Shown here piece after piece: positions 685 through 60,542 of a DNA stretch of 64,000 bases (position 1 is its first letter; every line of letters begins with the position of its first letter). A model generated the notes under the pieces. It saw only the letters and a program-made list of their open reading frames with translations. It was not told the origin of the DNA and searched no databases. The stretch is from positions 2,538,001 through 2,602,000 of the forward strand of contig WPIO01000003.1 in NCBI GenBank assembly GCA_009760855.2, in the 5' to 3' direction. Source of the stretch: Cristatella mucedo. Lineage: Eukaryota > Bryozoa > Phylactolaemata > Cristatellidae. Position numbers and translations under genes: made by a program.

Positions 685-881
685 GTTAGAGCTATAGATG
701 CAGACTCTGGAGCCACTGGCAGGATCTCTTACTCTATCGTGTCCACTACCAACAATGGTGGCAGAGGCACGTTCGCGATAAGCAATAGCACGGGTCAGAT
801 TACTGTAGCAAACGACTTGAGCAATGGTGAGCAATATATTCTTGTGGTTCGGGCATGTGACGATTCATATCAGCTATCAAG
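685..881 (+). CDS. Cadherin exon 1 (EC centre)
   Basis: Acceptor ttctag precedes 685 and donor gtgaga follows 881. The frame opens with VRAIDADS and contains [14 protein letters not shown], the standard EC centre with DxD and TG motifs. It starts in phase 0, so an upstream exon outside the window is expected, and ends with two bases of a codon completed by the exon at 972. Confidence 0.85.

Positions 882-60542: not shown

Follow-up and report, generated by a model that had tools for sequence, protein, structure and literature searches.

A giant single-pass cadherin gene in Cristatella mucedo with altered calcium motifs, possibly encoding a semi-flexible membrane tether

Gene structure

The stretch of the Cristatella mucedo (Bryozoa) genome studied here, 64,000 nucleotides of contig WPIO01000003.1 that we call the window (C332:2538001-2602000, on a 14.77-Mb contig of a 572-Mb genome), is filled by the middle part of what appears to be one intact gene for a giant, single-pass transmembrane cadherin. 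To the window we added 80 kb of upstream and 120 kb of downstream sequence; coordinates are those of the window, negative upstream of its first letter, and the gene lies on the + strand. A sequence-only reading of the window had proposed one giant cadherin gene with 42 exons over 685-60542, 2,724 joined codons, GT-AG boundaries without phase conflict, about 25 extracellular cadherin (EC) repeats, and no gene ends. Our independent gene model, a dynamic-programming combination of splice-site matrices, coding bias, and a bonus for the EC profile in which some ends were placed manually, arrived at the same exon count and bounds (first exon 685-881, last 60420-60542), and its connected open frame bears out the single gene. 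The exons sum to 8,124 nucleotides, i.e., 2,708 stop-free codons, so that the open frame stands but the codon count is revised. The phases do connect (the entry phase is 0 for 38 exons, 2 for three, and 1 for one), but the donor after 10564 is GC rather than GT. The model extends past both window edges, as had been predicted, and a gene start inside the window was considered and rejected. Modeling in phase 0 only overlooked junctions in other phases; these junctions and the two GC donors of the gene were resolved by a phase-free model and inspection, and spurious short exons from that model, some within pieces resembling long interspersed nuclear elements (LINEs), were discarded by eye.

Twenty-six EC matches overlap the window, close to the predicted number. 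The joined exons match PF00028 as expected (558 bits, E 1.3e-171, 13 stretches), and the other Pfam families at E <= 0.01 in the window protein of 2,708 amino acids (aa) are only cadherin-like (RET_CLD1 and Cadherin_FAT4_N). A profile derived from cadherins of this genome gave strong matches on the + strand only, from -6,222 to 149,924; elsewhere in the fetched region, and on the - strand, it never rose above ~7 bits. Under the same scoring, the + strand totaled 4,675, with 97 of 109 exons above 8, and the - strand 35, with none of 16; when the cadherin bonus was left out, 8 was exceeded by 85 of 109 exons on the + strand and 0 of 15 on the - strand. This control is partly circular because + strand exons served as the training set for its splice and codon tables. 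Rfam at the gathering threshold gave no match in the window, and ARAGORN no gene.

The whole gene model comprises 110 exons from -13,055 to 151,265 (164 kb) and encodes 9,353 stop-free aa up to the transmembrane helix. Its core exons have AG acceptors in 105 of 105 cases and GT donors in 103 of 105, the two GC-AG introns following 10564 in the window and 106010 outside it. Introns are in phase 0 in 104 of 109 cases, with a median length of 558 bp and a maximum of 6,391 bp. The flanks yielded parts absent from the window: N-terminal exons, a transmembrane exon, and a tentative tail. Among the five N-terminal exons added to the model, three match a paralogue described below (46-60% over 26-82 aa) and a fourth matches it through its last residues only; the exon at -9130 to -9023 was placed solely from its splice sites and fit. 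The only strong hydrophobic helix in the 9,353 aa lies in the last modeled exon (19-residue mean 3.23; next best anywhere 1.96). Beyond it, the tentative tail consists of two exons and a last exon with an uncertain acceptor, with a stop at ~155,577 and a total of ~9,570-9,700 aa.

Across the whole gene, 81 EC matches succeed one another, with a median of 106 aa from one to the next. Between matches, gaps of 232 and 259 aa each leave room for one unrecognized EC, and two further ECs are seen by eye ahead of the first match; the protein would therefore have ~85 ECs. The tandem ECs exceed the curated cut-off of PF00028, which places the protein in the cadherin superfamily. The proposed uninterrupted EC array without EGF or LamG domains holds in the Pfam-scanned parts, i.e., the window protein and four pieces of the gene, which together cover exons outside 66934-81791 and 89846-146829. 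A Fibulin_C match inside an EC of the exon of 1,718 aa, at 24.0 bits against a cut-off of 24.6, was taken as chance.

Exon sizes fall into two classes: among 106 exons counted, 43 measure 110-150 nucleotides (median 129) and 42 measure 151-205 nucleotides (median 186). Phase-0 introns occupy two places in the EC fold in 88 of 99 mapped cases, 43 just after DxD and 45 just before VxAxD. From these positions and sizes, we conclude that one EC corresponds, over most of the gene, to a two-exon, frame-neutral unit, and the gene was probably built by serial duplication of this unit. Two giant exons outside the window, at 84389-89542 (5,154 nucleotides) and 147123-150247 (3,125 nucleotides), are intronless over ~16 and 6-8 ECs, respectively, whereas elsewhere there are mostly two exons per EC; the paralogue shares these giant exons. 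This looks like ancient loss of introns over whole blocks.

Within the window, the exons near the upstream edge are the less regular ones. Exon 685-881 (phase 0 to 2) carries a canonical-like EC with D.D, and 972-1107 (phase 2 to 0), one of the lowest-scoring window exons, carries a linker and the start of the next EC. An EC core at 3293-3460 is followed by a near-canonical linker, DTNDHDPVF, at 3652-3780, a D.D segment at 3909-3970 (phase 0 to 2), and an EC core with linker at 5847-6090 (phase 2 to 0). Exons at 8600-8818 and 9107-9220 precede a long exon of ~2.5 ECs at 9381-10153 (phase 0 to 2; PF00028 in 9381-10091), the exon at 10332-10564, which is entered in phase 2 and ends in the GC donor, and the exon at 12746-13029, entered in phase 1. 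Thereafter come exons of the short (A) and long (B) types. The A exons lie at 13276-13416, 15520-15633, 16042-16164, 19989-20132, 21100-21231, 24229-24366, 27457-27585, 38268-38396, 43198-43329, 44315-44437, 44894-45034, 51058-51228 (lower score), 55131-55253, and 60420-60542, the last of these being followed by the next exon at 66934, outside the window. B exons whose linkers carry the RN motif described below lie at 13515-13691, 15758-15949 (lower score), 20805-20987, 31979-32191, and 43875-44063, and other B exons at 19558-19737 (the lowest score in the window), 23853-24038, 25287-25472, 38600-38794, 44579-44767, 46237-46437, 54204-54389 (one end hand-set), and 59945-60121. A and B are fused at 15089-15406 and B and A at 43465-43770; the remaining exons are 55352-55504 and 55605-56075, the latter with ~1.5 ECs.

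Between exons, at 1-623, 17151-17894, 40365-41051, 48508-49491, and 50241-50870, there are frames on both strands that resemble the C terminus of a reverse transcriptase, which we take to be of LINE type. One intron contains a perfect (TG)64 microsatellite (40163-40290), and several (TC)n arrays occur elsewhere.

Calcium motifs

Calcium ligands were counted in 81 aligned ECs and 80 linkers, with 13 canonical ECs from the same genome as the reference; residues are numbered as in E-cadherin, and the motif roles agree with passages in PMC5120219 and PMC8691648. The ligands of the Ca1 and Ca2 sites are mostly missing: D67 is present in 5 of the 81 ECs, E69 in 2 (27 if Asp is included), D103 in 7, and E11 in 25, against 10, 8 (10), 6, and 11, respectively, of the 13 canonical ECs. 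No more than one of these four ligands is kept in 79 of 81 repeats, and three or more in a single repeat. Site-3 ligands have been kept more often (N102 in 44, D134 in 48, D136 in 48, and D195 in 59 of the 81 ECs; 8, 13, 12, and 11 in the canonical ECs). Per linker, retention comes near to all or nothing: all four site-3 side-chain ligands are found in 37 cases, three in 4, and two or fewer in 39, and the 37 complete sets compare with ~11 expected if columns were independent. The linkers show the signature R-N-x-(Y/F)-x-P-x-F, with 28 RNxxxP motifs against ~1 predicted by composition. The linker set usual, although not obligatory, for three calciums (XEX, DRE, DXNDN, DXD, and XDX) is thus not the rule here; a few linkers toward the N terminus come close to the canonical form.

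N102 and DxD, which lie on opposite sides of the linker, co-vary (37 of 44 versus 2 of 36). N102 of a given EC is associated with the DxD and D195 that belong to the following EC; with those of the EC in which it lies it shows no association (odds ratios of 0.8 for D195 and 1.1 for DxD). Where the gene has two exons per EC, the D195 of the next EC is encoded on a different exon from N102 and the D195 of the same EC on the same exon, a distinction that does not apply in the giant exons. When D195 was shuffled against intact N102-DxD blocks, complete sets averaged 27.3, against the 37 observed (p 5e-5). Co-variation of the site-3 ligands thus follows the site, not the exon or the repeat. The proposed single giant cadherin gene is supported by the gene model; the altered calcium motifs and the two-exon unit per repeat are additions to that proposal.

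Paralogue and other loci

A paralogue occupies 168 kb of contig C550, from ~5,280,464 down to 5,112,057 on the - strand, in the same order at all points compared, from the first modeled exon through the transmembrane exon. It also matches exons around the window start, and window-middle exons have matches at 5,249,618, 5,247,947, 5,245,237, and 5,243,543 (38-46% identity); the comparison was systematic outside window coordinates 16-84 kb and 90-147 kb. An open frame of 1,697 aa matches the 1,776-aa frame at 84,326-89,653, and one of 1,066 aa the 1,068-aa frame at 147,045-150,248. As the giant exons are common to both copies, they are older than the gene duplication, and most of the length of the protein probably predates it also. 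The transmembrane exon is 41% identical to a paralogue stretch, both entering the helix by W-P-W-L-L, and one tail exon matches weakly over a short stretch (21 aa, E 0.001). Among 20 paralogue ECs, the best C332 match is co-linear in 13 and not co-linear in 7, and N102 and the preceding R each occur in 10 of the 20, i.e., the same signature.

Elsewhere in the genome, a further cadherin locus (C603:168502-206330) has EC exon matches whose frames, of identical lengths (140 and 86 aa), recur at intervals of ~4.6 kb; EC exon units appear to have been duplicated there in tandem recently. Other cadherins, on C222, C33, and C199, show the canonical calcium motifs in those of their ECs that were inspected. 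Pieces of COX1 on C166, C83, C549, and C299, outside the presumed mitochondrial contig C688, are probably nuclear copies of mitochondrial DNA. The COX1 frame on C688 is free of stops under genetic code tables 4, 5, and 9 (8 stops under table 2), and its conserved residues are best preserved under table 5 (AGR = Ser, ATA = Met), which suggests a protostome, probably a spiralian.

Discussion

We propose, with a probability of about 0.58, that the gene encodes a single-pass cadherin of ~85 ECs that serves as a long, semi-flexible membrane tether in which single-calcium and calcium-free joints are mixed. The few ECs near the N terminus whose motifs resemble DxNDN or LDYE would make up a stiffer, partner-binding tip, and the remainder a very long stalk in which one-calcium (site 3) linkers are interspersed with calcium-free ones. 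Such a stalk would be extensible and bendable, with a straight length of up to ~380 nm at ~4.5 nm per EC, and could connect the cell with another cell or with matrix, external calcium setting its stiffness. As almost every exon is 0-0, evolution or splicing could add exons to the stalk or remove them and leave the reading frame intact. From the sequence, we infer both calcium binding and the function of the protein. According to a passage in PMC8691648, a linker that carries no more than two calciums can be flexible.

Several observations weigh against this interpretation. The same source (in the passage seen) goes on to simulate one such linker for rigidity and strength, a lone site-3 ion may bind weakly, and we infer the tether role from architecture alone. 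The site-3 core is also associated, more weakly, with E11 of the same EC (17 of 37 versus 8 of 43; odds ratio 3.7, p 0.008) and with D/E at position 69 (17 of 37 versus 10 of 43; odds ratio 2.8, p 0.03), and thus a second site may be partly preserved at some of the linkers; D195, moreover, is present in 22 of 43 linkers that lack the N102-DxD core. The linker alignment is less sure than that of the core, given that even canonical ECs show N102 in 8 of 13 and D103 in 6 of 13, and Fisher p-values overstate independence because the repeats are paralogues. The start exon is the one missing part that the flanks did not yield in a signal-peptide scan of ~22 kb upstream and 17.5 kb in the paralogue. 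That scan returned four weak candidates here and none in the paralogue, and none was accepted.

The site-3 residues might instead be kept for EC folding, with all linkers effectively calcium-free. An isolated site could indeed be weak, and the EC9-10 linker of PCDH15 can, according to a published passage, do without calcium, but N102 and DxD co-vary across the linker and residues of different sites in the same EC do not, and we consider this explanation unlikely. We would give about the same low weight to the possibility that the gene is simply a longer Fat, Dachsous, or CDH23 orthologue, whose motifs were lost by drift and whose function is that of these known giant cadherins. The superfamily is the same, PDB sequence matches are to CELSR1 (best), protocadherins, CDH23, and PCDH15, and fully or partly calcium-free linkers are described, in the passages seen, for DN-cadherin, PCDH15, and other non-classical cadherins. 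However, the site-wise co-retention of site-3 ligands is unlike drift, the Pfam-scanned parts lack EGF and LamG domains, and the hydrophobic helix is single.

Errors of the gene model itself appear less probable still. Introns of up to 6.4 kb and LINE-like pieces between exons might lead one to suspect that two or more adjacent cadherin genes on the same strand were wrongly joined, yet the phases connect across 110 exons, the sole strong hydrophobic helix is at the very end (3.23 against 1.96), and the paralogue keeps the same order from N-terminal exon to transmembrane exon where compared; we regard such a fusion as improbable. The very long repeat array and the surrounding LINE-like pieces might likewise suggest a decaying pseudogene or a tandem-repeat assembly artefact, which seems hardly credible for 9,353 stop-free codons with consensus splice dinucleotides and a conserved paralogue. 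Non-overlapping EC pairs of the large exon, moreover, share only 19-26% identity with one another's first member, and they are therefore not recent or false duplicates; of the structure alignments behind this comparison, A2, with 16 non-overlapping pairs, was used and A1, in which overlapping repeats aligned with themselves, was dropped.

The single-pass tether with mixed joints may, more broadly, represent a class of cadherin rebuilt on single-calcium joints, with two ancient paralogues of a tether that has ~85 repeats, is extensible and tunable by calcium, and is perhaps the largest cadherin to date; we put this forward tentatively, as somewhat short of an even chance. Equally tentative is the proposal that in this class Ca1 and Ca2 are almost entirely lost, site 3 is complete at about half of the linkers and the other joints are calcium-free, and the R-N-x-(Y/F)-x-P-x-F signature is new. 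We recognized no cadherin this large and no family of site-3-only linkers in our searches of open-licence papers, which does not imply absence from print; automated prediction easily fragments such genes, and thus they may be overlooked. The rigidity of cadherins is ascribed to three calciums per joint, and if our interpretation is correct, a natural filament that retained one site and lost two at dozens of joints would allow the share of a single site in this stiffness to be measured directly. The gene would also indicate the size that an adhesion protein can reach through duplication of a frame-neutral two-exon unit.

Comparison with known cadherins

Fat and Dachsous are likewise giant cadherins with long EC arrays. 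Fat carries EGF and LamG domains, unlike the scanned parts of the protein described here. Fat and Dachsous are self-bending according to the title of a cited study, and passages in PMC11497213 and PMC9935876 give them 34 and 27 repeats and 350-550 kDa, respectively; with 81 matches (~85 ECs), the present protein does not fit this group.

Cadherin-23 and protocadherin-15 of the tip link are likewise long EC filaments. Most of their linkers are canonical, whereas canonical linkers are almost absent from the giant cadherin here. They also have a membrane-adjacent domain next to the last EC; the corresponding stretch here reached a predicted local distance difference test (pLDDT) score of 34.7 in a two-sequence AlphaFold model, and its PDB sequence search gave one irrelevant match (E 1.1). 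The EC8-9 linker of PCDH15, DMNDY, has Tyr at the last motif position, as do many RN linkers here. Cadherin-23 has 27 ECs and protocadherin-15 has 11, and non-canonical linkers have been proposed as a source of tip-link elasticity (both from passages in PMC5120219).

In the PDB, the 1,718-aa exon has its closest sequence match in CELSR1 (E 1.1e-39). CELSR/Flamingo proteins differ in their seven-pass region, where the present protein has one strong helix at its end and then the tentative tail, and in the EGF and LamG domains that its scanned parts lack; it does not fit that family either. DN-cadherin of Drosophila has the catenin-binding tail (PF01049) of classical cadherins, for which the tentative modeled tail of 345 aa gave no match at E 1; in the same genome, this family exceeds its cut-off at C222:4639999 and C222:7838056. 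The linkers of DN-cadherin are predicted, in a passage of PMC8325961, to be fully or partly calcium-free, and the molecule to be bendable, with 15 ECs against ~85 here. Hedgling is a large transmembrane cadherin as well, with N-terminal Hh and VWA domains as a passage in PMC4054682 has it; neither domain was matched in the N terminus modeled here, which starts after the missing first exon. The closest known proteins are Fat/Dachsous and the tip-link cadherins, all of which have far fewer repeats.
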